From Saprospiraceae bacterium (GTDB lineage: Bacteria; Bacteroidota; Bacteroidia; Chitinophagales; Saprospiraceae), in the NCBI GenBank assembly GCA_020629515.1, contig JAHDDE010000002.1, positions 16,594-80,593 on the forward strand: 64,000 nucleotides of DNA, written 5' to 3'. This document shows, one piece after another, positions 1-45,439 of this stretch. Every line of letters starts with the position of its first letter. Positions within the stretch are counted from its first letter, which is position 1. The position numbers and the translations under genes are program-made. The notes beneath the pieces are model-generated. The model was not told the origin of the DNA, made no database searches, and was given only the letters and a program-made list of their open reading frames with translations.

Positions 1-581
1 TAGGTTATGATCTAAGATTCTATCTAAAAAAGTTTGAACTGAACTCTAATGGAGACTTATTCTATCAGGGCTCTGCTTTTTTTACAGAACAAAAGGGAAA
101 GAAAAAACAAAAGGCACGCCATAAAAAGAATCGAAAAAAGACATTTGCTAACACCTCGAGAGATTTCTTCACAAAATTAATCAATAATGAAATAGATCCT
201 GAGGAGTATATGATGGCCTATAGTTATGAGAATGCCCAAGGCGAATTTGTGGTTTTAAAACAGATCACATCAGATTCGATAGATATAAGATCCATTGAGC
301 AAGATAAATATGAAATTCCAATAAGAGGCTACCTTACAGTATTCTTAAAAAAGAAAAAAGATACAAGTCAGATGACCACTTCTACTGGTCTGCAAGGAGC
401 TATGCGAACCAATAGACAGGCTGCAATGGGGTTCGCTAAATCATTCATAAAATCCAGAATCAATACTATATATGTCAATAGCCAAGGCGCCATCCTTAAT
501 CCACTGGATCTCGAAGAATATGGCTATTGGACGGATCAACGACTTGGTACTTTACTACCTTTTGATTATTCGAGTGATTAA
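1..581 (+). CDS. C-terminal part of an unrecognised protein (5' end outside window)
   Basis: The frame is open from base 3 to a TAA at 579-581, so the first visible ATG (210) is very probably internal. About 192 residues are visible. A basic stretch at roughly residues 33-50 (QKGKKKQKARHKKNRKK) is followed by a mixed segment and an acidic tail ending in DYSSD. No signal peptide or membrane segment is seen in this part. The C-terminal segment with NPLDLEEYGYW and LLPFDY resembles tails of Bacteroidota carboxypeptidase-regulatory-domain surface proteins, but that is a memory-based impression and the domain itself would lie outside the window. Function unknown. Confidence 0.75.
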   Translation, partial: GYDLRFYLKKFELNSNGDLFYQGSAFFTEQKGKKKQKARHKKNRKKTFANTSRDFFTKLINNEIDPEEYMMAYSYENAQGEFVVLKQITSDSIDIRSIEQDKYEIPIRGYLTVFLKKKKDTSQMTTSTGLQGAMRTNRQAAMGFAKSFIKSRINTIYVNSQGAILNPLDLEEYGYWTDQRLGTLLPFDYSSD

Positions 582-6674: not shown

Positions 6675-7828
6675 TACTCGAAAAAGTCTTTCATTCTTTC
6701 AAAAAAGCCCTTCTCTGACTTATCTGGTGCTGGTTGAAAGTTAGGTAAACTCCTCATACGCTCCATAATCTCTTTTTCTTCGGCATTAAGTTGTTTAGGT
6801 GTCCAAATGTTTACATTGACTAATTGGTCACCTTTGCCATAACCTTGAACTTCAGGAAATCCTTTACCCTTAAGTCTGAATATTTTCCCTGCTGGGGTTC
6901 CAGCAGGTATCTTGATTTTTACTGGATTCTCAAGTGTAGGAATCTGAACTGATGTGCCCAGAGCTGCATCCGCAAAGTTCAAAAAGAGATCGTAGATAAC
7001 ATTATTGCCATCTCTTACAAAATTCTCGTGTTCTATCTCATCAATTACTATCAACAGGTCACCTGTTGGACCACCAGCTTTTCCGGCATTTCCCTTTCCT
7101 CTCATAGAGAGCTGCATTCCAGCTCCAACTCCTGCAGGGATTTCGATTTCTATCATTTCCTCAGCATACATGCGACCATCGCCTTTACACTTTCCACAGA
7201 AAGATGTTATGCTTTGACCTGTTCCTCTGCACGTTGGACATCCTGTTGTGGTTTGCATCTGTCCTAAGAAAGTATTCTTCACCTGACGCACGTATCCAGA
7301 ACCTTTACAGGTTGAACATGTACTGACCGAATTAGAATCCTTAGCTCCCGAACCATTGCAGCCATCACAAGCTATTTGTTTTTTAACTTTTATCTTTTTT
7401 TGGATTCCTTTTGCTGCTTCCTCCATCGTCAGACTAACCTTGATCCTCAGGTTAGATCCTCTCTGGCCACGGCTTCTGGTTCCTCTACTACGACCTCCGC
7501 CGAAAAAGCTTTCAAAAGGGCTACCTCCATCTCCAAAAATATCTCCGAAGTGTTCAAAAATATCTTCCATGTTCATAGAGCCTCCGCTGAATCCACCCTG
7601 ATTGTTGACACCAGCATGACCATAGCGATCATATCTAGCTTTTTTATCAGGATCACTTAGCACTTCATAAGCCTCAGCAGCTTCCTTGAATTTTTCTTCC
7701 GCCTCTTTATTATCAGGATTTCGGTCAGGATGATATTTTAATGCCACCTTTCTATAGGCCTTCTTAATTGCATCTGCCTCTGCATTCTTTGGCACTCCTA
7801 ATACATCATAAAAATCACGTTTAGCCAT
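6674..7828 (-). CDS. dnaJ: chaperone DnaJ
   Basis: 384 residues, full length. It stimulates DnaK ATPase activity and delivers unfolded clients. The J domain (1-70) carries the HPD triad in YHPDRNPD. A Gly/Phe-rich linker (about 75-110) follows, then four zinc-binding CxxCxGxG-type repeats ([32 protein letters not shown]) and the C-terminal substrate domain. It is 9 bp downstream of grpE and overlaps gldH by one base, so grpE-dnaJ-gldH is one operon. dnaK is not in the window. No CIRCE repeat is seen upstream. Confidence 0.98.
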
Positions 7829-7837
7829 TCACTTTTC

Positions 7838-8401
7838 TTATTTGCCGACGACTACTTTAGCATGTCGGATTATTTTATCATTCAGTAGATATCCTTTCTC
7901 TATAGTATCTATGATTTTTCCTTTCATATCTTCCGTTGGTGCCGGTATCTCTGTTATTGCCTCGTGCAACTCTGGATCAAAAACCTCACCTGTACTTTCC
8001 ATTGCTTTAACACCTTTTGATTCTAACAAACCCTTTAGTTTATTATACACTAAACTAACTCCTTCGGTAAAGACCTCATTGCTGCTATCATCGTCTGCGC
8101 TTTTTTTGGCTCGATCAAAATCATCAATTACAGGAAGAAGAGCTGAGATAGTCTCACGCCCCGCTGTATTGATTAGATCCAATCTTTCTTTTACTGTGCG
8201 CTTTTTATAATTGTCAAATTCAGCATAGAGTCTTAGATATTTATCTTTTGACTCTCCAACTTCAGTTTCTAATTCTTCTATTCTACTCTCTAATTCAGCC
8301 GTTTTTGACTTTCTTTTAGGAGATTTTTTTTTCTTGTCTTCCTTTTCTTCGCTTTCTTTTTTGCTCATAAATTTCACTTTATCAACTTTCTTTATGGACA
8401 T
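7838..8401 (-). CDS. grpE: nucleotide exchange factor GrpE
   Basis: About 187 residues. GrpE releases ADP from DnaK. The N-terminus is highly charged (many KE repeats) and a long coiled coil covers roughly residues 45-85. The conserved core has YKKRTVKERLDL, LLPVIDDFDRA, and the C-terminal beta domain ending in GYLLNDKIIRHAKVVV. Three starts are possible: TTG 8404, ATG 8401 and ATG 8368 (MSKKESEEKE). The last would also give a normal GrpE, and the sequence does not decide between them. It is first in the grpE-dnaJ-gldH operon. Confidence 0.95.
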   Translation of the reverse strand: MSIKKVDKVKFMSKKESEEKEDKKKKSPKRKSKTAELESRIEELETEVGESKDKYLRLYAEFDNYKKRTVKERLDLINTAGRETISALLPVIDDFDRAKKSADDDSSNEVFTEGVSLVYNKLKGLLESKGVKAMESTGEVFDPELHEAITEIPAPTEDMKGKIIDTIEKGYLLNDKIIRHAKVVVGK

Positions 8402-14775: not shown

Positions 14776-16173
14776 TTGGATCCAGATCCCTCCGAATTAA
14801 TATTATTTGATCAAATGTGTTTTCTCACAAGTTTTGTAGAGATAAGTGGGATGATATTATTACTTCTTGGATTGTTACTTTGCTCTGCTCTAATTTCTGC
14901 TTCTGAAGTAGCTTTCTTCTCCTTGTCACCCCAAGATATGGACGCTTTGAATAAAGAAGGCGGCAAATCGAATGATAATATAAATAAACTCAAAGAGCAT
15001 CCACGAAACCTCTTAGCAACGATATTAATTAGCAATAACTTCATTAATATCGCAATAGTTATTCTATCAGACTATGTGTTGCGCAAAACCATTTCTGAAT
15101 CGACATTTTTATCTTGGGCAGAACAAGTGATACAATCGACTGGTATCTCTTTTCTTTCAACAGGTCTTCTATCATCTATCATAAGTATTTCAATCACAAT
15201 AGTAGGAGTGACATTTTTATTGGTCCTTTTTGGAGAAGTAGCCCCTAAAATATATGCTAACCTAAATAATGTAAGACATGCAAAGTTTATGGCATTGCCC
15301 CTGATCATCCTCTCTAAAATATTCGCTCCCCTCAATGGCCTGTTAGTAAGCTTTTCTGCTAAAATTGAAGAAAGAGTATATCGCCAAAGACTTACCACCC
15401 CGAGTACCACAGATAAAAAAGAAATCGATAAAGCTATAGATCTTGCGGTTGCAGAAGAAGAAGATCGCGAAGATGTGGATATCCTAAAAGGCATCATCAA
15501 ATTTGGAGATGTCACAACAAAGCAAATTATGCGCTCTCGAGTCGATGTAACAGCACTTGATATTGAGGAAAACTTCAAGAGTGTTATGAAAACTATCAAA
15601 GACTCAGGATTCTCCAGATTACCCGTTTATCAAGAAGATTTTGACAATATAAAAGGCATACTATATGTCAAAGATTTGCTTGGGTACACTCATAAAGAGG
15701 CTGACTTTAACTGGACTCAACTCATTAGGACTAATACTCTCTATATCCCTGAAGCAAAAAAAATTGATGAATTGCTAAAAGAGTTTCAGCAGAAAAGAAC
15801 TCATATGGCAATAGTTGTTGATGAATATGGTGGAACACAAGGCTTAGTAACGCTCGAAGATATCATGGAAGAGGTAATTGGAGATATAAGGGATGAGTTC
15901 GATGATGAGGAGAATGTTGACTACACCAAAATCGACAACTTTAACTACGTATTTGACGGCAAAACACTTATCAATGATGTCGCTAGGATCATCGATGTTG
16001 ACAACGACTTGTTTAATGAGGGTAGAGGTAGTGCTGATTCGTTAGCAGGATTGATACTCGAACTCGAGGGTCAGATTCCTAAAAAAGATAAAATAATCGA
16101 CTACGGAGATTTTAAATTCAAAATAATTTCCGTGAATAAAAGAAGAATTGAGAAAATAAAAATAACTCTGTGA
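14776..16173 (+). CDS. gldE: gliding motility-associated protein GldE (CorC/HlyC family)
   Basis: 465 residues. A DUF21 membrane region (about 1-190, with SALISASEVAFFSL and NFINIAIVIL) is followed by a CBS pair (about 210-335, IMRSRVDVTALD and HMAIVVDEYGGTQGLVTLEDIMEEVIGDI) and a C-terminal CorC/HlyC transporter-associated domain. The family resembles Mg/Co efflux proteins. GldE is required for gliding in Flavobacterium and usually lies directly before gldD, as here. The start is a TTG giving DPDPSE; the next option is ATG 14815, which would cut the N-terminus before the first helix. Confidence 0.93.
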   Translation: MDPDPSELILFDQMCFLTSFVEISGMILLLLGLLLCSALISASEVAFFSLSPQDMDALNKEGGKSNDNINKLKEHPRNLLATILISNNFINIAIVILSDYVLRKTISESTFLSWAEQVIQSTGISFLSTGLLSSIISISITIVGVTFLLVLFGEVAPKIYANLNNVRHAKFMALPLIILSKIFAPLNGLLVSFSAKIEERVYRQRLTTPSTTDKKEIDKAIDLAVAEEEDREDVDILKGIIKFGDVTTKQIMRSRVDVTALDIEENFKSVMKTIKDSGFSRLPVYQEDFDNIKGILYVKDLLGYTHKEADFNWTQLIRTNTLYIPEAKKIDELLKEFQQKRTHMAIVVDEYGGTQGLVTLEDIMEEVIGDIRDEFDDEENVDYTKIDNFNYVFDGKTLINDVARIIDVDNDLFNEGRGSADSLAGLILELEGQIPKKDKIIDYGDFKFKIISVNKRRIEKIKITL

Positions 16174-16760
16174 GGGTATATATCATTGTTCTAACCACAC
16201 TCTTATGTTGGATCTCATGCCACGAAGAAAAGGTCGCTAAGCCTAGGCCGCATCAATATCCAAAAATCAACTTTCCAATAAAGAATTTATCAACACTTAA
16301 CCCAGAAGGGTGTCCTTTTAGCATCTCTATCCCAGATTATGCACATATCATTAAGAAGCAAGAAGTGCATGATCAAAAAGTGATTCACCCTTGTTGGATT
16401 GATATTAAGATGCCAACATTCGGAGCGACTATACATTGCAGTTATTATCCTATTGACCAAACTAATACATACGAAGCGCTTGTAGAAGATGCCTTTACTT
16501 TAGCGAGTAAGCATAACGTTAAAGCTAGCTTTCGAGAAGAGTATGCGATCGAGACAATAGAAGGTTCTAAAGGCCTTCTTTTTAAAATAGATGGCCCTGT
16601 GGCCACACCTTATCAATTCTATTTATCAGACGAAAACGAACACTTTTTTAGAGGGTCTCTATATTTTGATCAAAAAATACAGCTTGATAGTATGGCGCCG
16701 ATAATCAGCTACATCCAAGGCGATATCAATGAGATGGTAGGATCAATTCGATGGAAGTAG
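16170..16760 (+). CDS. gldD: gliding motility lipoprotein GldD
   Basis: 196 residues starting at GTG 16170, which overlaps the gldE TGA (GTGA), so translation is coupled. Signal peptide with lipobox WISC (Cys17). The mature part has the GldD pattern: PKPRxY-like PRPHQYPKINFP, CPFSISIPDYA, and a C-terminal SLYFDQKIQLDSMAP. The role in gliding is genetically known in Flavobacterium but biochemically unclear. The gene position right after gldE supports the call. Confidence 0.9.
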   Translation: MRVYIIVLTTLLCWISCHEEKVAKPRPHQYPKINFPIKNLSTLNPEGCPFSISIPDYAHIIKKQEVHDQKVIHPCWIDIKMPTFGATIHCSYYPIDQTNTYEALVEDAFTLASKHNVKASFREEYAIETIEGSKGLLFKIDGPVATPYQFYLSDENEHFFRGSLYFDQKIQLDSMAPIISYIQGDINEMVGSIRWK

Positions 16761-18754: not shown

Positions 18755-21088
18755 TTAAGGTTTTAATTCCTTTTTCTTTTTTGCTCTGTTAGCTCTTTGC
18801 ATTGCATTCTCTCTCGTTGCTCTTGGCTTTTTATTCTTGAATGCCTCAAACCTCGATGGCGTTCTCTCCCTAGGATAAGAATTATCATCAGTATTGACAT
18901 CTGCTATTTCGAGATATGGATCTAATACAATTTTTTCTACCTCTTGATCAGTTGGAAAGACTTTAGTAATTTTTTCTGGATTGAACCTCCATACCTCAGC
19001 TGGTATTCTGAAGTCCTCAGTTGTCCCATCAACATATGTAAATTGCAATATCACAGGCATCATTAATCCGCCACTATTTTCTATTGTCAATTCATAATAC
19101 TGTTTTCCATTATTTAAGAGTTCTTTTTCTCCAGGTGATAAATTATTCAAAAACTGCTGATACTCATCATCATCCAATACATCAGATTCTAATGGATCAT
19201 AAGTCGTATAAAAATCTCTTAGAGTTGTATCCATCTCATCATATGTCTGAGCTATATCTTTAGCTCTAAGTGTACTAATATTTTGAGGTCCTTCATCCCT
19301 CATTTTTTTAGCTCTTTCTTTTTCAGCTGCAGGATTTCCGCTGTTCATATTATAGTGATTGACCGAGGCCAACGTTTGATCAACATGATCATTAGTATAA
19401 AACCAGCCTCTCCAAAACCAATCAAGATCTACTCCGGAGGCATCTTCTATAGTTCTAAAGAAATCTGCAGGATATGGGTTTTTAAACTTCCATCTATTTG
19501 AATATTCTTTAAATGCATGATCAAATAGTTCTCTACCTACAACTGTTTCTCTCAAGATGTTTAAAGCAGTTGCTGGTTTACCGTAGGCATTATTACCAAA
19601 TTGCCATATACTTTCTGAGTTGGTCATTATAGGAGAAATTCTTGATTTATCTCCACCCATATAGTTTGTAATCTTGTCAGCTGGCCCACGTCTATGCGGG
19701 TAGTTACGCTCCCATTGTTGTTCTGTAAGATATTGAACATAAGTATTAAGACCTTCATCCATCCAGGTCCACTGTCTCTCATCAGAGTTAACAATCATAG
19801 GAAACCAGTTGTGGCCTACTTCATGTATGATCACTCCGATATGACCATACTTGATTCTTTTACTATAGGTATCATCAGATTGACATCTACCATAATTAAA
19901 ACATATCATGGGATACTCCATACCCATGCTTCCATCTATAGACCAAGCTACAGGATAAGGATAATCAAATGTATAATGAGAGAACCACTTAATGGTATGA
20001 GCTACTGCTTTAGTGCTGTACTTCTTCCATAGACAATCTCCTTCTGGTACCCACATAGATTGAGCCATCACTGTACTTCCATCACTCATCTTGACACCCA
20101 TGGCATCCCAGATAAACCTCCTTGATGTAGCAAATGCGAAATCTCTCACATTCTCAGCTTTGAATTTCCATGTTTTATATTTAGTCGAGACTTCTTTCGA
20201 ATTCTCTAATGATTCGTCAAGTGTGTTAATTGTAACTGGCTGCACATAGGATTTTTTAGCTTCAGAGAGGCGCCTTCTTTGTTCGGATGACAGAACGCTG
20301 CTTTCATTCTGCAGTGTTCCAGTAGCTGCTACAAGGTGATCTTCAGGCACAGAAAGCTCAAGCTCATAATCGCCAAACTCTAAGGTAAATTCGCCTCGCC
20401 CATAAAATTGTTTATTTTGCCAACCCTCGATGTCATTATATTTACAGAGTCTTGGATAAAATTGAGCAATACAATATACTCTTTGGCCATCACTAAATTC
20501 TTCGTATCCCGATCTACCGCCAATCTGACGTGTATTGTTGATATTATACCACCATTTAATGTTGAAAGTTATTTTTCCTCCTTTTGCTTTCAAAGTTGAA
20601 GGCAAATCAATTCTCATTATGGTGTTATTTATTACGTACTTCATTGCTCTACCACTGGCATCCTTGACATGATCTATTTTAAATCCACCATCAAAAGTTG
20701 GTATCAAACGACTCAAGGTTCTTGTAGAAGTAGAGTTTGGATCAATCTTAGAAGTTCCTATTAGATGAGCATCACTGTCTTTAGCTCTAACATTCTGATC
20801 TAATTGTAACCACAGATAACTTAGATCATCAGGAGAATTGTTAGTGTAAGTGATTGTTTCTTCCCCATAGATCTTTTTCTCTTCATCGTTCAAAGTGATC
20901 TTAAGTTTGTAGTCAGCCTGTTGCTGCCAGTATTCATGTCCTGGTGCTCCCGATGCTGTCCTATAAGTATTAGGAGAAGGTAATTCTTGTGCTAACTGTC
21001 TGAACAGATTGGTGTTAGTGTTGTCCTGTGCTATTAGACTTGTTGCTATTAGACATAGACAGAATACAATCAATTGTTTCATATTCAC
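18755..21088 (-). CDS. M1 family metallopeptidase
   Basis: 777 residues. A signal peptide (MKQLIVFCLCLIATSLIAQ) sends it across the inner membrane. The M1 zinc site is complete: HEVGHNWFP near residue 420 with the downstream Glu in WTWMDEGLNTYVQYL. The usual GAMEN exopeptidase motif appears as GSMGMEYP, as in many Bacteroidota members. The N-terminal beta domain (about 50-300) has the EETITYTNNSP and LWLQLDQN pattern. The C-terminal 250 residues are less conserved and end in a very basic tail (RANRAKKKKELKP). It probably degrades peptides in the periplasm or outside. Single gene with its own terminator. Confidence 0.93.
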   Translation of the reverse strand: MNMKQLIVFCLCLIATSLIAQDNTNTNLFRQLAQELPSPNTYRTASGAPGHEYWQQQADYKLKITLNDEEKKIYGEETITYTNNSPDDLSYLWLQLDQNVRAKDSDAHLIGTSKIDPNSTSTRTLSRLIPTFDGGFKIDHVKDASGRAMKYVINNTIMRIDLPSTLKAKGGKITFNIKWWYNINNTRQIGGRSGYEEFSDGQRVYCIAQFYPRLCKYNDIEGWQNKQFYGRGEFTLEFGDYELELSVPEDHLVAATGTLQNESSVLSSEQRRRLSEAKKSYVQPVTINTLDESLENSKEVSTKYKTWKFKAENVRDFAFATSRRFIWDAMGVKMSDGSTVMAQSMWVPEGDCLWKKYSTKAVAHTIKWFSHYTFDYPYPVAWSIDGSMGMEYPMICFNYGRCQSDDTYSKRIKYGHIGVIIHEVGHNWFPMIVNSDERQWTWMDEGLNTYVQYLTEQQWERNYPHRRGPADKITNYMGGDKSRISPIMTNSESIWQFGNNAYGKPATALNILRETVVGRELFDHAFKEYSNRWKFKNPYPADFFRTIEDASGVDLDWFWRGWFYTNDHVDQTLASVNHYNMNSGNPAAEKERAKKMRDEGPQNISTLRAKDIAQTYDEMDTTLRDFYTTYDPLESDVLDDDEYQQFLNNLSPGEKELLNNGKQYYELTIENSGGLMMPVILQFTYVDGTTEDFRIPAEVWRFNPEKITKVFPTDQEVEKIVLDPYLEIADVNTDDNSYPRERTPSRFEAFKNKKPRATRENAMQRANRAKKKKELKP

Positions 21089-21185
21089 TTTTCAATTGTT
21101 TATTTAATAAAATAGGGTTCAAGATAATATATTCTTATCAAGAGAGAACTGCTTTATATAAAGATATTTATGGGTCCTTTATGAT

Positions 21186-21201
21186 TGTTCCACGTGGAAC
21201 A
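21186..21201. other. parS-like centromere site 1
   Basis: TGTTCCACGTGGAACA is a perfect 16-bp palindrome that matches the general bacterial parS pattern TGTTnCACGTGnAACA bound by ParB. It lies in the gap between the M1 peptidase and hydrolase genes. parA and parB are not in the window. Confidence 0.85.
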
Positions 21202-21235
21202 GAGATTTGAAAATATGATATATTAATTGTAAAAA

Positions 21236-21251
21236 TGTTCTACGTGGAACA
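21236..21251. other. parS-like centromere site 2
   Basis: TGTTCTACGTGGAACA, one base off the perfect palindrome and exactly 50 bp (start to start) from site 1. A close pair in an intergenic gap, about 2 kb from a candidate origin, is what a ParB loading region looks like. Confidence 0.8.
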
Positions 21252-21309
21252 AATATGCGTATAAGAAAGCCCCAACATGTTGTGATCTAATACTACTATT
21301 ATGACAACT

Positions 21310-22089
21310 TTAATCCAAGCTGGTTAGAAATGTCTCAAGAATCTCATTAAACTCATTAGGAACCTCCATCATCGGTGCATGACCACACTTATCAATGAAA
21401 TGCAACTCAGCGTTTGGAATTAATTCTTTAAACTTCTCACCCACAAATGGAGGAGTAATTGTATCTTGATTTCCCCACACCAACAGAGTAGGACAATTGA
21501 TTTTAGTTATTTGATCTTCTATATTATGTTGTAAAGCCGAGCGAGCAGTCAGTACAATATTAAATGCTTTGTTGCGATCATTTACAGTTTCAAATACTTC
21601 ATCCACTAATTCTTTAGTGGCAATGGCCGGATTATAGAAAGTAACTTCAGTTTTGGCCCTTATATAATCGTAATCGCCTCTACGTGGGTACCCATCCCCC
21701 ATACCCGATTCAAATAATCCGCTACTACCTGTTAGACACAGACTCTTAACCTTATTCGGCACGTCCAAAGCATACAATTGCGCAATATGTCCACCTAAAG
21801 AATTACCTAATACATGCATTGATCTAAATTCTTTGAACTCTACAAATCGCTTTGTAAACTCTAATAGACCTCCTAATCCAGCCTCTTCTCTTGGTAGAGT
21901 ATAAATCGGTAAAATCGGAACCACTACATTATAACGCTTACTGAAATAGTCTATAAGATCAGTAAAGTTACTCAACGCCCCAAATAGACCGTGCAATAAC
22001 ATAAGTACTTCTCCATCACCTCCCGTTTCAATATATTGAAACATACCATCCGATTTCACTTTTTGATTCATATTTCTATTCTGTACCAC
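21310..22089 (-). CDS. alpha/beta-fold hydrolase
   Basis: 259 residues. Oxyanion segment LMLLHGLFG, nucleophile elbow GNSLGGH (Ser near residue 96), acid in LLVWGNQDTITPP, and catalytic His in IDKCGHAPMMEVP. No signal peptide, so cytoplasmic. The family covers esterases, C-C hydrolases and others, and the substrate cannot be inferred. A second ATG at 22071 (MNQKVKSDG) is also possible. It is 32 bp downstream of the heme A synthase gene on the same strand, probably in one transcript. Confidence 0.9.
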   Translation of the reverse strand: MVQNRNMNQKVKSDGMFQYIETGGDGEVLMLLHGLFGALSNFTDLIDYFSKRYNVVVPILPIYTLPREEAGLGGLLEFTKRFVEFKEFRSMHVLGNSLGGHIAQLYALDVPNKVKSLCLTGSSGLFESGMGDGYPRRGDYDYIRAKTEVTFYNPAIATKELVDEVFETVNDRNKAFNIVLTARSALQHNIEDQITKINCPTLLVWGNQDTITPPFVGEKFKELIPNAELHFIDKCGHAPMMEVPNEFNEILETFLTSLD

Positions 22090-22121: not shown

Positions 22122-23204
22122 CTATATTATATTTCGGCTTTTCCGCACAAAGAAAAAATGAATAATAAAACTACCAAAAAGTAGCACTGCAACACCTTGA
22201 TGTAGCACTCCCCATAATACTGGAATATGACCAATACTATTGATCAAGGTTAATATCCCTAATAGAACTTGTAGTATTAATAGTCCAACAACGGCAAAGT
22301 AACTTTTTTTAACTAATCCTGAAGATACCCTGATTGCATACTTTAACCCGTATATAAGAATAATTATACTTATTAAGTATGCCAAACCCCGATGAATAAA
22401 ATGCATCAATGCAAAGGTGAAAGAACCTTTATCATAATCTATAAAACTTTCTAAACTCCAAAGTCTGCCTTCTGTTAGTATCATAGGAAACATCTCTCCT
22501 CCAATATCTGGCCAAGTAGGAAAAATCATAGATGCCTTCATACCACTCATAATACCGCCAAAGAAAATCTGCATGACCAATAAAACGAATATTGATTTAG
22601 TCCAAGACAGATTTATGAATTGACTATGTGAAACTTTTAAGTCATCGTATGCATACTTTAAAAAAGTCCATAACAAATATGAAAATACACTAATGCCGAT
22701 CGATAGATGAATACTCAATTTATAGGCATTAACCCACGGACGATCACTCAATCCGCTAGCTACCATAATCCAACCAAATATTGCCGCTAGTCCAGCCAAA
22801 GAAACCACAATTCCTAAATCGCGAGTAAGACTAGAAGGAATCCAACTTTTAGCTAGAAAGAATATAAAGGGAAACAAAAACACAAAACCCATAGATCTTG
22901 CCCAGAGGCGATGAAAGTATTCCCAGAAATAAATGAACTTAAAACTATCAGCTTGAAAAATAGAATTGCCTAGAGGCATACCATCATTAATTTTTTTATA
23001 CTGAGGTGTATCCTTGTATTTATCAAACTCTACTAGCCATTGAGCTTCTGTTGTAGGTGGAAAAGTGCCTGTTACTATTTCCCACTTCGTAATAGATAAT
23101 CCTGATCCTGTTAATCGCGTTATACCCCCAATTATAATTTGGAAGTACAACATTACCAGACCTATGACAAGCCAAATCAAAACGATTATTTTTTTCGATC
23201 TCAT
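22122..23204 (-). CDS. ctaA: heme A synthase
   Basis: 360 residues of the COX15/CtaA family with eight predicted membrane helices. It converts heme O to heme A for cytochrome c oxidase. Motifs present: GGITRLTGSGLSITKWEIV near the first helix, EYFHRLWARSMG, MHFIHRGLAYL and WGVLHQGVAVLLF, which supply the heme-ligand histidines. No other cytochrome oxidase gene is nearby. A perfect -7 element (23209-23216) ends 4 nt before the ATG. Confidence 0.95.
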   Translation of the reverse strand: MRSKKIIVLIWLVIGLVMLYFQIIIGGITRLTGSGLSITKWEIVTGTFPPTTEAQWLVEFDKYKDTPQYKKINDGMPLGNSIFQADSFKFIYFWEYFHRLWARSMGFVFLFPFIFFLAKSWIPSSLTRDLGIVVSLAGLAAIFGWIMVASGLSDRPWVNAYKLSIHLSIGISVFSYLLWTFLKYAYDDLKVSHSQFINLSWTKSIFVLLVMQIFFGGIMSGMKASMIFPTWPDIGGEMFPMILTEGRLWSLESFIDYDKGSFTFALMHFIHRGLAYLISIIILIYGLKYAIRVSSGLVKKSYFAVVGLLILQVLLGILTLINSIGHIPVLWGVLHQGVAVLLFGSFIIHFFFVRKSRNII

Positions 23205-23678
23205 ATCACAAATGTAAATCCAAATGAGTCCAATTGGTATACACCTATCTTACAGACATTGTTTTTACTTATTATTAATTATTCTTTAAAAGAGATCATT
23301 ATTATTAGCGCTGTTAATTCGTGGATAACTTATCAGAAAATCATTTTATATAGTTTAACTAACACAATTTCACATAATTGATATTATTTAAGCATTTGAT
23401 TATCAATTTATTATAATCATTATTAATATAATAAGTAAAGATTATTAACAATTCAATGTGAATAATGAATACTCTAAAAAATTATGAAAAAATGTGAATC
23501 AATTAAAGTAATGTGCATAAGTCAACAAAGCCTTAGCATAGCTCAACAATATGGTATGGAGTGCTGAGTACAATATGTTAAAAAGGTACAATAACTTAAG
23601 TCTGCAATTAATTGATATTATGTGATTTATGTATATGAAATAATACTATGTTAGTAATAAATATTTTACAACTAAAAG
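23205..23678. other. candidate chromosomal replication origin (oriC)
   Basis: 474 bp without genes between divergent ctaA and dtd, much richer in A/T than the surrounding genes. It contains three 9-mers in one orientation that read TTATnCAC on the minus strand: TTATCCACG (23320-23328, last base differs), TTATTCACA (23457-23465) and TTATGCACA (23512-23520); the consensus is TTATnCACA. A fourth, weaker site is at 23493-23501. Long AT-only runs (about 23405-23450) could be the unwinding element. Two parS-like sites lie 2 kb away. In Bacteroidota the origin often does not lie next to dnaA, so the missing dnaA is not an objection. Confidence 0.55.
23209..23216 (-). promoter_or_regulatory. -7 element (TACATTTG) abutting ctaA
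   Basis: Exact TAnnTTTG on the minus strand, 4 nt before the ctaA ATG, which predicts transcription starting almost at the start codon. The nearest TTG (23231-23233) is 14 bp away, too close for a normal -33 box. Confidence 0.45.
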
Positions 23679-24125
23679 ATGAAGGCTGTAATCCAGAGAG
23701 TTTCTGAAGCAAAAGTGACTATAGCAGGTAAAATAAACGGATCTATTGGTCAAGGTCTACTTATCCTATTGGGTATATGTGATCATGATACTTCAGAAGA
23801 TATAGAATGGTTAATCAGGAAAATTGTCAATATGAGAATTTTTGGTGATGACCAAGGTCATATGAATTTGGGCCTGAAAGATGTTCAAGGATCTATACTA
23901 CTTATTTCACAATTCACATTATATGCATCAACTAAGAAAGGAAATCGTCCGTCGTTTATGCAAGCGGCAAAATCAGATATAGCAATACCACTGTATGAAT
24001 CTTTTATAAAAGAGATCAGAAAGGAGGTCAAAACAGAAACAGGAATCTTTGGTGCAGATATGAAAGTATCCTTAGTGAATGATGGACCAGTAACTATAAT
24101 AATTGATTCTAAAAATAAGATGTAA
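23679..24125 (+). CDS. dtd: D-aminoacyl-tRNA deacylase
   Basis: 148 residues, full length. It hydrolyses D-aminoacyl-tRNA, and also Gly-tRNA-Ala, as a proofreading step. The N-terminus [15 protein letters not shown] and the two active-site signatures SQFTLYA and NDGPVTI are present. It is the first gene of a seven-gene plus-strand run; its TAA shares one base with the next ATG (TAATG). Confidence 0.97.
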
Positions 24126-39638: not shown

Positions 39639-40538
39639 ATGAATCAAGATTTTGAACTTTCAATATTAGTATGCACATATAATCGCTTAGACATCTTAGG
39701 AGATTGTTTAAGATCAATCCAAAAGCAAGATTATGAGGAAAGAAAAGTAGAGGTTATCGTTGTCAATAATTATCCTTCAGATAATCAAAGAATAGAGGTT
39801 CTTTTAAAAGAATTTCCTTCTTTTAGATTAATATATCAACCCTCTCCTGGTCTCAGTAAAGCTAGAAATATAGGTATAGCGAATTCACTCGGAAGATGGA
39901 TAGGATTTATTGATGATGATGCCATTTTGCCAGCGGGTTTTATCGAAAAAGCATTGGAGATAATTGAAGAAGATAAATTTGATTGTTTTGGAGGAGGTAT
40001 AGCGTCTTGGTGGAGATATGGTCGACCGAGGTGGTTGTCAGAAGATTATGGATCCAAGCCAAAAATATTAACCCATCGTGGCCAGTTGATCAATCAACAA
40101 TTCAATTGGGGGAGTAATATATTTATAAGAAAAGTTGCTCTCGACGATGTTGGAGGTTTTCCTGAAAACATAGGTATGAAAGGAAATAAAATTGGATATG
40201 CTGCAGAAAATTTGGTTCAAATTAAGCTAAGAGCAAAAGGATATATATTAGGTTTTGATCCTACCCTTGAAGTCGATCACTTAGTTAATAAGCATAAATT
40301 AAGGTTGAAATGGCATATTAAATCAGCCTATGCGACAGCAAGAGATGGTCGTGATGTATATCCAATCGACTATACTTTGTCAGGTTATTGTAAAACATTA
40401 AGACGATTAATAGCTGCCCCCATAAAAGGAATATTCCAATTAGCCTCCACAAATTACTATTGGGAGAATTGGATATTAGATACATGTATTCCTTGGGCCC
40501 AGTTGCTGGGCAAATTGAGATCCGCAGTTAAGTCTTAG
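39639..40538 (+). CDS. glycosyltransferase family 2
   Basis: 299 residues. GT-A fold with LSILVCTYNRLDILGDCL, the long donor site LSKARNIGIANSLGRWIGFI followed by DDDA, and a C-terminal part with GYAAENLVQIKLRAKGY. It lacks membrane helices. Its stop overlaps the end of the convergent PorU-like gene by 4 bp. Probably part of the same glycan pathway as its divergent neighbour. Confidence 0.9.
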   Translation: MNQDFELSILVCTYNRLDILGDCLRSIQKQDYEERKVEVIVVNNYPSDNQRIEVLLKEFPSFRLIYQPSPGLSKARNIGIANSLGRWIGFIDDDAILPAGFIEKALEIIEEDKFDCFGGGIASWWRYGRPRWLSEDYGSKPKILTHRGQLINQQFNWGSNIFIRKVALDDVGGFPENIGMKGNKIGYAAENLVQIKLRAKGYILGFDPTLEVDHLVNKHKLRLKWHIKSAYATARDGRDVYPIDYTLSGYCKTLRRLIAAPIKGIFQLASTNYYWENWILDTCIPWAQLLGKLRSAVKS

Positions 40539-43500
40539 TTTATTTTAAAGATTCTACCTTTTTTCTTGTCTTGACGACTGTCTAGATTGTTTATTATTTC
40601 ATAAAAGTAAATTCCAGTTGGCAGAATATTACCAGAGTCATCTAAGCCATCCCAGAGGTATCTATTTACGCCATAAAATAAACCACCAAAATCCTCTTTA
40701 TCGACTCGTTTAACCTGCTTACCATCTGCAGTGAAAATGCGGAGATAAAAGATCTCTGGGATCATGTCGTCTATATAAAATTCAAAGGTCAGATCATCTT
40801 TAAAAGGGTTCGGCCAAATATTAAAAGGATCTTCAGTAATCCTTTCTTCTACATTGAATGTTACTTGATAATTATACAACCCAGCAGGATTACCAGCGGG
40901 GTCTTTTGCATTAACATTTAGTATATACTCTCCATAAACACTTAGATTAGGATTGATGAAGAATGTAGCCGTATTATCATCGATATTATTTGCAGGCATA
41001 AACGTTACATCGGGATCTGATTCTGAAATATCTCGCACGAATACTTCAGGGTAGTAAAGAGTAATCTTGAAGTCGTCAGGATTGTCCAACAATACGTATG
41101 ATTCAGGGTCCGACAAGCTTATTTTGATTTCTGGGTTAGGGCCAGTTATATGTCCATTTTGTATGACTTGATTATTGAATGTTACATTTAAAAACGGTTG
41201 CTTATTATCAGGACGAACATAAAGCTGTGACTGTCCAAAATTATTATCTAAAGTTAATTCAGGTTGATCTTCGTTTGGATTTAATTCAACGCTTATGATG
41301 TATTTTCCTCCCAATCCATCAGTCTGAAGATATTCAGTAAACTGAATCTTGCTATGGGCAGGGACTTTTTCGGCCCTTTTCACAAAAATATTTTGTTTTC
41401 CAGACTCATCGGTCATGCGATATCTCACCAAAATTGGTTCCAAGTCTGAATTGCCAAGGTTCATTATATCAAAACTTATTTCGATTTCTTCACCTGCATT
41501 AACGGTATCTTCTAGCATGAAAGAATTTTCAATATTTGAGTATAGGGCAGCATCCGGTAAAGCATCGTATAGTACCCTCCAATAATCTAATGTGGAGCTG
41601 GTCCTATCAGGATCTGATATGTCATACTCAATTGCGATATACGGATAGACTGCTGAATTAATTTCACTTAAGTCAATGCTATATTCATCTGTTGTCCGTA
41701 TCAATAAATCCTTTGTACCATTTCTTTTCTTTAATCCATAAACATTTATAAAGCTGATATCGTCACCTTCTTTTTGTTCTGTCCAGATAAGTTGTTTCCA
41801 CGACTTGGCTGGCCCCACTGGTACACTTATAATTGTTCCTTCATTCCAAGTACTTGTAGCTTTTGAAGAAAGATCAATGGTAGATTCAATATTTTCACCC
41901 ACATCTTCTACAACTAGACCCTGACCTTTATCAAATATCATGGTAAACGGAACGGCTCCTTTTTCTTCGAGTTCTCTCACACGTATTGATCCATAGTTTT
42001 CCAATATTTCAAAAAGATCGTATCCCAATACTTCTTTATCATTTTGCCAATCTTCAATATTGAGTGTTGTTTTTTCATCCTCTATTAGGGTATGCAAAAA
42101 GACTCGCGCTCCTTCTGGTATCGACTCCAAAAGCTTCACGATATTTTCTCTGTCTGTAGTAGTTTTAGGATTATAAATGAACCCGTCTGGAGAATAAGGA
42201 ATACTTCCATAGTCGGATCCAGAGTTAGAGATAATGACCTCTTCTTTGTGCCATGCGAAAATGCCTATACCAGGAGCTAATTCTTTAGGATTGAGAGACC
42301 TCCATGGTGAGTTGTTTACAAAAACCCAAAAGTCATTAGGATCTTTTTTACGATTTTTTATCCTGATATCCCATTGTCTTTCTGCATATTGGACTCTGCG
42401 TGATGTTGTATCCAAAATCGTTTTAAAAAAATCGTCTGACAACCATTGATAATAATGACTTTGGTTCCAACCAGTGGGGCTATCCGGTAGATATACAAAA
42501 GATCGACTTTTCCAGGTATTAGATTTTAAACCAAATTCTGTGGGTTGTGGCGCAATTCTCCAGTAGTATACTCTCCCAGCTTCATAATCGATATCAGGAG
42601 ACCATTTAATTAAACTACTAGTGTTTTGTATTATAGTTTCTTTTTTCCATGGGCTCTCAAAAGTCTGAGAGGTATCTATCTCAAGAATGAATTCACCTCC
42701 AGGGTCAAACGCATTGTTAATCGATGCAATCAGCTCAAAATTTGCAGTATTATTTATTATTCCAAAATCTTCAGGAAAAACAGGAGAAGCGGTATTGTCA
42801 AGAATGAAAAACTCGTGACCTTCTTCTCCTGTTTCTTTTATTAGGCGATTATTTTTTTCTGCTTTAGGATCAGGATGCTCCATGATTTGATTCTCTGGAT
42901 CCAATATGATTTGTATTTGATTTTTTCCGACAGCATCAAAACCAGGATTAGGAATATCTACACTTATGGTTTGCGAATATGCCGGAGAAGGTATAGTTAC
43001 GTGGGTAGTATCTTTTTGATCATCACCAAACTCATGTATTATTACTAAATCCAACTCATTGTCTATGGTTTTTCCAATATTAACTACTTCAGCCTCTACA
43101 GTAATATCTCTTGTTGTAGAATTTATAATATCAGGTAATACTCTAACAGATTCATGATCAATTATATAATCAGGCCCATCAAATATCTTGAATCGATAAG
43201 CAGGATCTCCATGAAGAGTAAATTGTTGCAAAAGTGTCTGAATAGAAATACTCCCTTCATTAGCTCTCTTTTTCAGAGCTTCTTTGACTACCATTCCTAT
43301 CGTTGACCCATACAAGTCTTCTCCTAACAACTGATAAAGATTGAGTCCCATGTTGTATTGAGGATTGATATATGCAGTACCAGATGAAGCTAAGAATACT
43401 GTAGCCCCCATGTCCTTATGTAGCACAAACTGCTCACTTATTCCTCTATTTCCCGAAAAAATATTCCCAGAATGGCATCCTAAAGAAAGTAATATTGGGT

Positions 43501-45439
43501 TTTTACCCGCATTATTGTATTTACTGGGATCTTCTAAGCTAAAGTCAAAAGTACCTACAGCCGAGTGCCCAAAAAATGTTAATAGAGAAATGCCATCATT
43601 TATAGTGCTAATTATTTCTTCTGAGGCGACGGTTTGAATAGGATCAGATGAAGTTTTTCTAAATGTGAATACATCCCCACCGAAGGTGTTATTAGATATT
43701 ACATCACCCATATCATTGAGATAATTAAATAGGAGATTTTGTATATCTGAAGAACCACCGCTAAGGTGTGCTATACTCTTTTTCCACTTTTGTGATTCTA
43801 TTGTTTGATCCCCATTATCTGGTGATTCATGCAATCGGATTTTTTGTAGATAATTGCGTATTTCTTCTCCTGATTGTACTGCAATCCTACCGATAGGTAT
43901 AGACGGATAGTTTTCACCTTCAGGAGCCACAAACATATTGTCAGAACCAGGTATTCCCCAAGTAGTCACTATATTCTGATCTTTATAGCGTTCATCTCTC
44001 AGCTCAGTATATTCTAAACCTTTACCTATGATGAATAAATATTCAGGCATTTCATTTAGTGATCTGAGATTTTGAATAAAATACTTTAAGGATGTAGGAT
44101 GTCCTTCGACCCCATATGAATATCGATTAGTCAAATCGTTTATATCCACTACTGCCACCTTATAATTTCCACCTTGCTCAGATCGACGGTATGACGCATA
44201 TTCAGCTACTTCTTCAGCAAATTTATTATCACTTACGATCAGATATTGAGCAGACTTTATAGTATCGAATTCAGTTCTCTGGAAGTTTTCAATTGAAGCG
44301 ATATTAGTAGCTCCGTTGATTAAATACCACTCTGTCTGTGTAAAAGCAGACGGACTAATGAATTGTATCTCATCATCTGTGATTTCTGGATAAATGATCT
44401 CTCCTTGGGTAAGATTAAAGAGGATCGGATTGTTTGAGCCGTTGGAGAAATTATTGATTTCTACTAGTCTTGGAATTATTGAGGCTTGTTGCACAAAATG
44501 ATACTCCGTCTCATTATTAAAAGTGTATAAACGAGGATATGACAAATCATAATAACCAACAGTGCTTTTTTCTTTTTCTGAGCCTAGTGGCTGCACAGTA
44601 ATGATTAATGTATCGCTTGCTAAAAAGCTCCGATCCAAGGTTTCTTCAAATTCTACTACATCATATCCCTGTACAGAAAGATTTTTAATGATTCGATCAT
44701 TTGCAAGAATCTGGAGAGATCTGCTGTGCACATTTGTTCCTATTCTCATTTTTAATACAGGATCTATTCCAAAAGGGGCTAAATCACTGATAGGGATTTT
44801 AATGTCATACTTGTGCTCAAGTTTACGTCCGAAACCTTCACCACTATCATAATCTGAATAGCGGATAAAGTCCCTGCCATTATAGCTTGGTTTATTAAAG
44901 AACTCGTGATACACTTTCTTTTCGTGATGTAAGTAGTATTCTTCTTTAGGTGGAATTCCTGGTTGATCAAATCCATTTGAGGTCACCCTGAATCTCAAGT
45001 TGTTAGGATTGGGTATTTGACTCCACGTCAGAAAATAAGGTCTGCGGTTAGTATATAGACTGAATTCGGGGTTTAGTTGTTGGCGTTCAGGATTGTTATA
45101 AAGCTGTTCGTCTAAACTTCCATCGTTAGCTTTTCCATAAAAGTAGATAAAGTCGTCATCAGTTAATGCTTCTTCTGATGAAACGAATATTCTAACCAAT
45201 TGGCCATATGACCATAATTCTATTTGGTTAGGATTGATTTGATCAATAGGAAGTCCTACTTCTCTGAGTGTTTTAAGGTCAATCTTATAAACCCCTGATC
45301 GGTCAATTTCAAATTTTAAGTATTGCTTATCATGGCTCCACCAGTCATTGTTGAGTGCTTGAGCATATATAATAGGACATGGGATACATGTCAACACCAA
45401 CAAAAAAGAAATGATGTAACGCAACAATACCCGACTCAT
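40535..45439 (-). CDS. porU: PorU-like type IX secretion sortase (C25 peptidase family)
   Basis: 1634 residues, longer than the about 1160-1300 usual for PorU. Signal peptide (LLRYIISFLLVLTCIPCPII), then the PorU-type N-terminal beta region (NDWWSHDKQYLKFEIDRSG). A gingipain-like C25 domain at about 400-760 has the His in FFGHSAVGTFDF (about 624) and the Cys in LLSLGCHSGNIF (about 655). Several Ig/FN3-like and CARDB-like beta domains follow (for example NAGEEIEISFDIMNLGNSD). The end has the T9SS C-terminal pattern: NPFKDDLTFEFYI and PTGIYFYEI. PorU cleaves the sorting signal of T9SS cargo at the cell surface. porV, its usual partner, is not here, and a large secreted C25 protease is an alternative. 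Confidence 0.82.
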   Translation of the reverse strand: MSRVLLRYIISFLLVLTCIPCPIIYAQALNNDWWSHDKQYLKFEIDRSGVYKIDLKTLREVGLPIDQINPNQIELWSYGQLVRIFVSSEEALTDDDFIYFYGKANDGSLDEQLYNNPERQQLNPEFSLYTNRRPYFLTWSQIPNPNNLRFRVTSNGFDQPGIPPKEEYYLHHEKKVYHEFFNKPSYNGRDFIRYSDYDSGEGFGRKLEHKYDIKIPISDLAPFGIDPVLKMRIGTNVHSRSLQILANDRIIKNLSVQGYDVVEFEETLDRSFLASDTLIITVQPLGSEKEKSTVGYYDLSYPRLYTFNNETEYHFVQQASIIPRLVEINNFSNGSNNPILFNLTQGEIIYPEITDDEIQFISPSAFTQTEWYLINGATNIASIENFQRTEFDTIKSAQYLIVSDNKFAEEVAEYASYRRSEQGGNYKVAVVDINDLTNRYSYGVEGHPTSLKYFIQNLRSLNEMPEYLFIIGKGLEYTELRDERYKDQNIVTTWGIPGSDNMFVAPEGENYPSIPIGRIAVQSGEEIRNYLQKIRLHESPDNGDQTIESQKWKKSIAHLSGGSSDIQNLLFNYLNDMGDVISNNTFGGDVFTFRKTSSDPIQTVASEEIISTINDGISLLTFFGHSAVGTFDFSLEDPSKYNNAGKNPILLSLGCHSGNIFSGNRGISEQFVLHKDMGATVFLASSGTAYINPQYNMGLNLYQLLGEDLYGSTIGMVVKEALKKRANEGSISIQTLLQQFTLHGDPAYRFKIFDGPDYIIDHESVRVLPDIINSTTRDITVEAEVVNIGKTIDNELDLVIIHEFGDDQKDTTHVTIPSPAYSQTISVDIPNPGFDAVGKNQIQIILDPENQIMEHPDPKAEKNNRLIKETGEEGHEFFILDNTASPVFPEDFGIINNTANFELIASINNAFDPGGEFILEIDTSQTFESPWKKETIIQNTSSLIKWSPDIDYEAGRVYYWRIAPQPTEFGLKSNTWKSRSFVYLPDSPTGWNQSHYYQWLSDDFFKTILDTTSRRVQYAERQWDIRIKNRKKDPNDFWVFVNNSPWRSLNPKELAPGIGIFAWHKEEVIISNSGSDYGSIPYSPDGFIYNPKTTTDRENIVKLLESIPEGARVFLHTLIEDEKTTLNIEDWQNDKEVLGYDLFEILENYGSIRVRELEEKGAVPFTMIFDKGQGLVVEDVGENIESTIDLSSKATSTWNEGTIISVPVGPAKSWKQLIWTEQKEGDDISFINVYGLKKRNGTKDLLIRTTDEYSIDLSEINSAVYPYIAIEYDISDPDRTSSTLDYWRVLYDALPDAALYSNIENSFMLEDTVNAGEEIEISFDIMNLGNSDLEPILVRYRMTDESGKQNIFVKRAEKVPAHSKIQFTEYLQTDGLGGKYIISVELNPNEDQPELTLDNNFGQSQLYVRPDNKQPFLNVTFNNQVIQNGHITGPNPEIKISLSDPESYVLLDNPDDFKITLYYPEVFVRDISESDPDVTFMPANNIDDNTATFFINPNLSVYGEYILNVNAKDPAGNPAGLYNYQVTFNVEERITEDPFNIWPNPFKDDLTFEFYIDDMIPEIFYLRIFTADGKQVKRVDKEDFGGLFYGVNRYLWDGLDDSGNILPTGIYFYEIINNLDSRQDKKKGRIFKIN

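Follow-up and report, generated by a model that had tools for sequence, protein, structure and literature searches.

Chromosomal parS sites are 16-bp palindromes near the consensus TGTTYCACGTGRAACA, with TGTTTCACGTGAAACA as the consensus of the Caulobacter/Bacillus type. In Pseudomonas aeruginosa, parS2 and parS3 are exactly TGTTCCACGTGGAACA, and the ParB of that species prefers perfect palindromes, followed by sites with one end mismatch (PMC4368675). A further paper gives TGTTCCACGTGGAACA as the parS of Pseudomonas putida and TGTTCCACGTGGAACG as that of Myxococcus xanthus (PMC7022226). A paper on the second chromosome of Flammeovirga names parS and ParB (PMC8653839), and the matches listed in our literature search included no title on parS in Saprospiraceae.

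The window analyzed here, a stretch of 64,000 nucleotides of Saprospiraceae DNA, contains two putative parS sites, neither of which is assigned a strand. Site 1 (21186..21201) is the perfect 16-bp palindrome TGTTCCACGTGGAACA, with 0 mismatches, and is identical to P. aeruginosa parS2 and parS3. Site 2 (21236..21251) is TGTTCTACGTGGAACA, in which 1 mismatch, at position 6, departs from the perfect palindrome. We conclude that the two palindromes are, with a probability of about 0.96 on the sequence evidence, a canonical chromosomal parS pair, i.e., a bacterial centromere. The motif, its copy number and clustering, and the ParB, ParA and SMC proteins of the genome all favor this reading, as do the presence of the motif in relatives and a candidate oriC close by; it had been proposed in an earlier note on this DNA. 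Against it stand the mixed halves of site 2, the separation of parS from parAB in an assembly of 98 contigs, a candidate oriC with no perfect DnaA box and incompletely repeated in relatives, the wide parS-dtd distances of some genomes, the altered contact residues of ParB, and five genomes of the order with no motif match. The features expected of a chromosomal ParABS system of the ParB-CTPase type are found together, namely a 16-bp palindrome, few and clustered copies, a ParB with parS-type residues, an adjoining ParA, and a position near the replication origin, here about 2 kb from the skew minimum of the contig, where oriC is predicted.

Comparison with described parS sites

Site 1 shares the 16-bp palindrome frame and the central CACGTG with the Caulobacter/Bacillus sites, which differ in having T/A at positions 5 and 12, where site 1 has C/G. 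In the PAO1 strain of P. aeruginosa, the sites likewise cluster near oriC; ten are listed in PMC4368675, four of them close to oriC, in contrast to two in the genome studied here. The copy number also differs from the 22 sites of M. xanthus and the 3 of P. putida, as given in PMC7022226. The single-mismatch sites tested in P. aeruginosa, parS1 and parS4, are off at the last base rather than at position 6, and therefore say little about the change in site 2. That position-6 change does occur in P. aeruginosa parS5, together with another change.

Genomic setting and uniqueness of the pair

The start-to-start distance from site 1 to site 2 is 50 bp. At ≤3 mismatches to TGTTCCACGTGGAACA, the window has 2 matches, which are just these two sites, and 100 dinucleotide shuffles of the window gave a mean of 0.10 matches at the same threshold, with 2 reached in 0/100. 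The genome assembly (G000; 3,906,150 bases in 98 contigs, 97.79% complete), scanned over all of its bases, has 13 places at ≤3 mismatches: sites 1 and 2 at 0 and 1, respectively, and the other 11 all at 3, leaving the pair as the sole matches at ≤2 mismatches. A reversed-pattern control produced 9 matches at ≤3 mismatches and 0 at ≤1 in the same genome; at ≤1 mismatch it produced 2 matches in relative G022, 3 in G028, 1 in G047 and 1 in G056. Chance palindromes were rejected on the window shuffles, assembly scan and reversed-pattern control. The earlier note had described two 16-mers 50 bp apart, the first perfect and the second one base off, with no other CACGTG in the window resembling the pattern; both the coordinates and the mismatches are confirmed. 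It had further expected a small genomic cluster and considered that copies scattered over the chromosome would speak against parS; the assembly holds the two copies 50 bp apart and none elsewhere at ≤2 mismatches.

The pair sits in a short gap between two minus-strand genes. On the left, the start of an M1-family peptidase gene (18755..21088) faces the pair, and on the right the gap is bounded by the 3' end of an alpha/beta-hydrolase gene (21310..22089). These open reading frame bounds, together with the start of the candidate oriC at 23205, agree with the earlier placement of the pair in a short intergenic gap about 2 kb from an oriC candidate.

Partition proteins of the genome

A single match to the ParB_N profile was found in the genome at E ≤ 0.001 (E = 2.4e-37). 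The corresponding ParB (L014:1003-1890, minus strand) is 295 aa long and has ParB_N, HTH_ParB and ParB_C domains, an architecture of N-terminal, HTH and C-terminal dimerisation parts, as well as a GERR motif. Directly upstream of parB lies the gene for a 261-aa ParA-type ATPase with a KGGVGKTT motif (L014:1903-2688, minus strand), and downstream is a DUF5683 protein. An SMC frame of 1193 aa is found on contig C45 and the single DnaA match of the genome on contig C49. A genome with no parB would, in the earlier note, have argued against parS; the search for parA and parB instead yielded one three-domain ParB with the ParA gene adjoining.

The residues that determine DNA specificity were read from alignments of this ParB to chain 6t1f and within a set of 21 ParBs, chosen from 55 genomes with a match and comprising 20 of the window's family (its own included) and that of G055. 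We take chain 6t1f to be Caulobacter ParB, with an offset of 10 to the numbering of the specificity study discussed next, and this agrees with the residues that study names. There, R173 and G201 (Caulobacter numbering) are described as absolutely conserved in extant ParB orthologues, the Noc set is Q173, K179, K184 and R201, and many residues are tolerated at positions 179 and 184 (PMC7383237). By alignment, the present ParB has R/H/K/G at positions 173/179/184/201; it carries the parS-type pair R173 and G201, and agrees with the Noc set at position 184 only. R173 is kept in 21/21 of the aligned ParBs and G201 in 20/21, with A in G004. Three parS-contact residues described as conserved in PMC7383237 are altered in this ParB (Q162 to H, S172 to K and R204 to K). 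The first of these, Q162, is reported there to contact parS and to be conserved between ParB and Noc; of the 21 aligned ParBs of the order, 16 carry H at position 162, 3 carry D and 2 retain Q. Position 162 speaks against a wholly ordinary ParB, and we regard the altered contact residues as a minor point.

Candidate replication origin

The candidate oriC (23205..23678, no strand assigned) is the 474-bp gap between ctaA and dtd, marked by a GC-skew minimum, A+T richness and DnaA-box-like 9-mers. Its left border is ctaA (22122..23204, minus strand), assigned to the COX15/CtaA haem A synthase family by a Pfam match above cut-off and an NCBIfam match below its cut-off, and its right border is dtd (23679..24125, plus strand), encoding D-aminoacyl-tRNA deacylase. 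The candidate starts about 2.0 kb from parS site 2. Cumulative GC skew along contig C17, of 198 kb, is lowest at position 23373 of the window, inside the gap and 2.1 kb from the parS pair. The gap is 77.2% A+T, and the most A+T-rich 474-bp stretch of the window, taken in 20-base steps, starts at 23201. DnaA-box-like 9-mers, each with 1 mismatch, are located at 23320, 23457 and 23512, and no perfect DnaA box was found in the ctaA-dtd gap of the window. These three boxes make the gap the densest place on the contig when 400-bp windows are counted; with 500-bp windows, it ties with one other place (C17:192601).

The signs are partly repeated in the contigs of three relatives. The skew minimum of G006 coincides with an edge of the ctaA-dtd gap, which holds two DnaA-like boxes, one of them perfect; a place with three such boxes exists elsewhere on that contig. 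In G019, the DnaA boxes of the contig cluster most densely in the gap (4 boxes, one perfect), and the skew minimum lies 12.5 kb away. G036 has no clear skew V, with the minimum close to an end of the 80 kb covered, and no DnaA-like box within 700 bp upstream of dtd. Because the signs in these relatives are mixed, an oriC at the ctaA-dtd gap is a sequence-based prediction that is likely, not proven. The suggestion in the earlier note that parS pair and oriC candidate support each other is favored by the skew minimum and the A+T-rich gap of the window, though the three relatives repeat these signs incompletely.

Conservation of the motif and its neighborhood

Among 60 genomes of the order, 45 carry the 16-mer at ≤1 mismatch and 55 a match to the degenerate 14-mer GTTYYACGTRRAAC, the genome of the window being included in both counts; GTTYYACGTRRAAC has no match in the remaining 5/60 (G024, G029, G038, G042 and G051). 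The 55 genomes hold 111 sites. At least two sites are present in 47 genomes, and in 45 of these all sites fall inside one 5-kb cluster, the exceptions being G003 and G050. Several genomes without a match at ≤1 mismatch carry recognizable variants. G002, of the same genus as the genome studied here, has two copies of TGTTCTACGTAGAACA, the symmetric version of the second site, the nearer of them 4.9 kb from dtd; relatives G004, G019 and G027 have the exact Caulobacter/Bacillus variant TGTTTCACGTGAAACA twice each; and G035 has mixed half-sites. In the phylum as a whole, the motif occurs in 274/296 genomes of ≥90% completeness, with two as the commonest site count (table read by eye).

The inner half-sites are matched in 94/111 sites (CC/GG in 64, TC/GA in 27, CT/AG in 2 and TT/AA in 1) and mixed in 17/111, site 2 of the window among them. 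When half-sites were re-dealt in 10,000 shuffles, a mean of 57 and a maximum of 74 were matched, compared with the 94 observed; the genomes are related, and since the shuffle ignores this relatedness we treat the result as support and not as a probability. Half-sites that co-vary would be the expected trace of a symmetric ParB dimer recognizing the motif.

From the relatives, 30 loci were picked by hand and fetched, of which 29 were usable since the contig of G009 ends too early. A parS site at ≤2 mismatches is present in 29/29. Sites and dtd share a contig in 21 genomes of the order; in 13/21 they are ≤12 kb apart, and all 13 genomes belong to the window's family, while in the other 8/21 the distance is 25-290 kb (about 60 kb in G040). 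Recurrence of the motif in the same neighborhood in many family relatives strengthens the parS reading. A general dtd-parS link across the phylum is unsupported, as a parS-like 14-mer was found in 3/80 named dtd loci (the best 80 of 584, 23/80 being shorter than full flanks) and a control motif in 0. The three loci are L073, L098 and L113, the last apparently the contig of relative G019. L073 (Bacteroidaceae) carries one copy of GTTCCACGTGAAAC at 8130, 1.9 kb upstream of dtd, and L098 (Prevotellaceae) one copy at 7497, 2.5 kb upstream; parS near dtd therefore occurs outside Saprospiraceae too.

Alternative explanations

The location of the pair about 100 bp upstream of the M1 peptidase start could suggest a transcription factor operator for that gene, resembling parS by chance, and indeed parS lies ≤1 kb upstream of a peptidase homologue in 20/29 of the relatives' loci (manual count). 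The other 9/29 loci (G005, G007, G013, G016, G025, G026, G027, G028 and G055), however, keep the sites without an adjoining start of a detected peptidase homologue, so that the sites appear independent of the peptidase gene; a peptidase operator as the main function was rejected on these nine loci. Other bacteria, moreover, have ParB sites of this motif, which is found in most genomes of the phylum (274/296) and has no further copy at ≤2 mismatches in the present genome. We consider an operator very improbable. It is a different matter whether the pair is parS and the loaded ParB also represses the peptidase promoter, which would add to the main explanation and not compete with it. The title of PMC5521831 reports repression of promoters adjacent to P. 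aeruginosa parS3 and parS4, PMC7022226 devotes a section to ParB and gene expression, and the pair occupies the expected position of the peptidase promoter. A promoter scan of 21000-21400, on the other hand, gave a single hit, which was weak, on the minus strand and distant from the start of the peptidase gene; Bacteroidota promoters differ from sigma-70. Such repression is possible, if on balance unlikely.

The palindromes could also be a Noc-type site, or a plasmid or phage partition site, instead of a chromosome centromere. Among the NCBIfam models, Noc gives this ParB its highest score, yet one below cut-off (222 vs 315 bits), whereas the ParB/RepB/Spo0J domain model is above its own (183 vs 58 bits). 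Although K at position 184 is as in Noc, Noc has Q173/R201 where this ParB has R/G, and a Noc-type site was rejected on these two residues. A plasmid or phage origin is difficult to reconcile with the one ParB of the genome and with the core chromosomal neighborhood (thrA, dnaJ, ctaA and dtd). Both versions are extremely improbable.

A chromosomal parS pair would be expected to act as in the well-studied ParABS systems, from which the following steps are drawn. A ParB dimer would bind each 16-mer with one HTH domain per half-site, and CTP would make ParB close as a sliding clamp, which then moves onto the DNA on either side. ParA would then move the ParB-DNA complex, the complex would load SMC, and newly copied origin regions would separate first. 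The two closely spaced sites may provide two ParB entry points at one place. The pair is a sound and useful annotation of a known type; it holds no surprise and leaves knowledge of segregation unchanged. For a Saprospiraceae-type genome of a poorly studied kind, it marks the likely centromere and lends support to the predicted origin, and clustered parS sites, often near ctaA-dtd, offer a simple marker for orienting the contigs of relatives.

Distance to parAB and spacing of the sites

In this genome parAB lies on contig C93 and parS on C17, at least about 50 kb apart as judged from the contig ends. A larger distance is seen on the 2.85-Mb contig C2 of G055, with parS at 1,347,049 and parB at 2,080,447, about 733 kb between them. 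In many well-known systems parAB is close to parS and oriC, and the separation here is thus a small departure. Adjacent sites in the order gave 54 spacings, of which 13, from seven families (f1, f2, f4, f5, f8, f9 and f13), are 38-52 bp; similar spacings occur in other families of the phylum among the matches listed. No clear 10.5-bp helical step was apparent when the list of doublet spacings was inspected by eye. One might propose that the Bacteroidota doublet is a functional unit, in which two ParB sites about 40-50 bp apart would load clamps together, forming a centromere without nearby parAB. We find this proposal improbable, and regard doublet spacing and parAB distance as minor points.

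Other features of the window

Two neighboring plus-strand open reading frames near the start of the window (210-581 and 710-1081), of 123 aa each, have no Pfam match at E ≤ 0.001 and no likeness to each other by BLASTP. A 1634-aa protein encoded at 40535-45439 (minus strand) combines a domain of peptidase family C25 with a weak match to FlgD_ig, below cut-off, close to the C-terminus. At 16170-16760 (plus strand) lies a gene for a gliding motility lipoprotein of the GldD type, which fits a Bacteroidota host.
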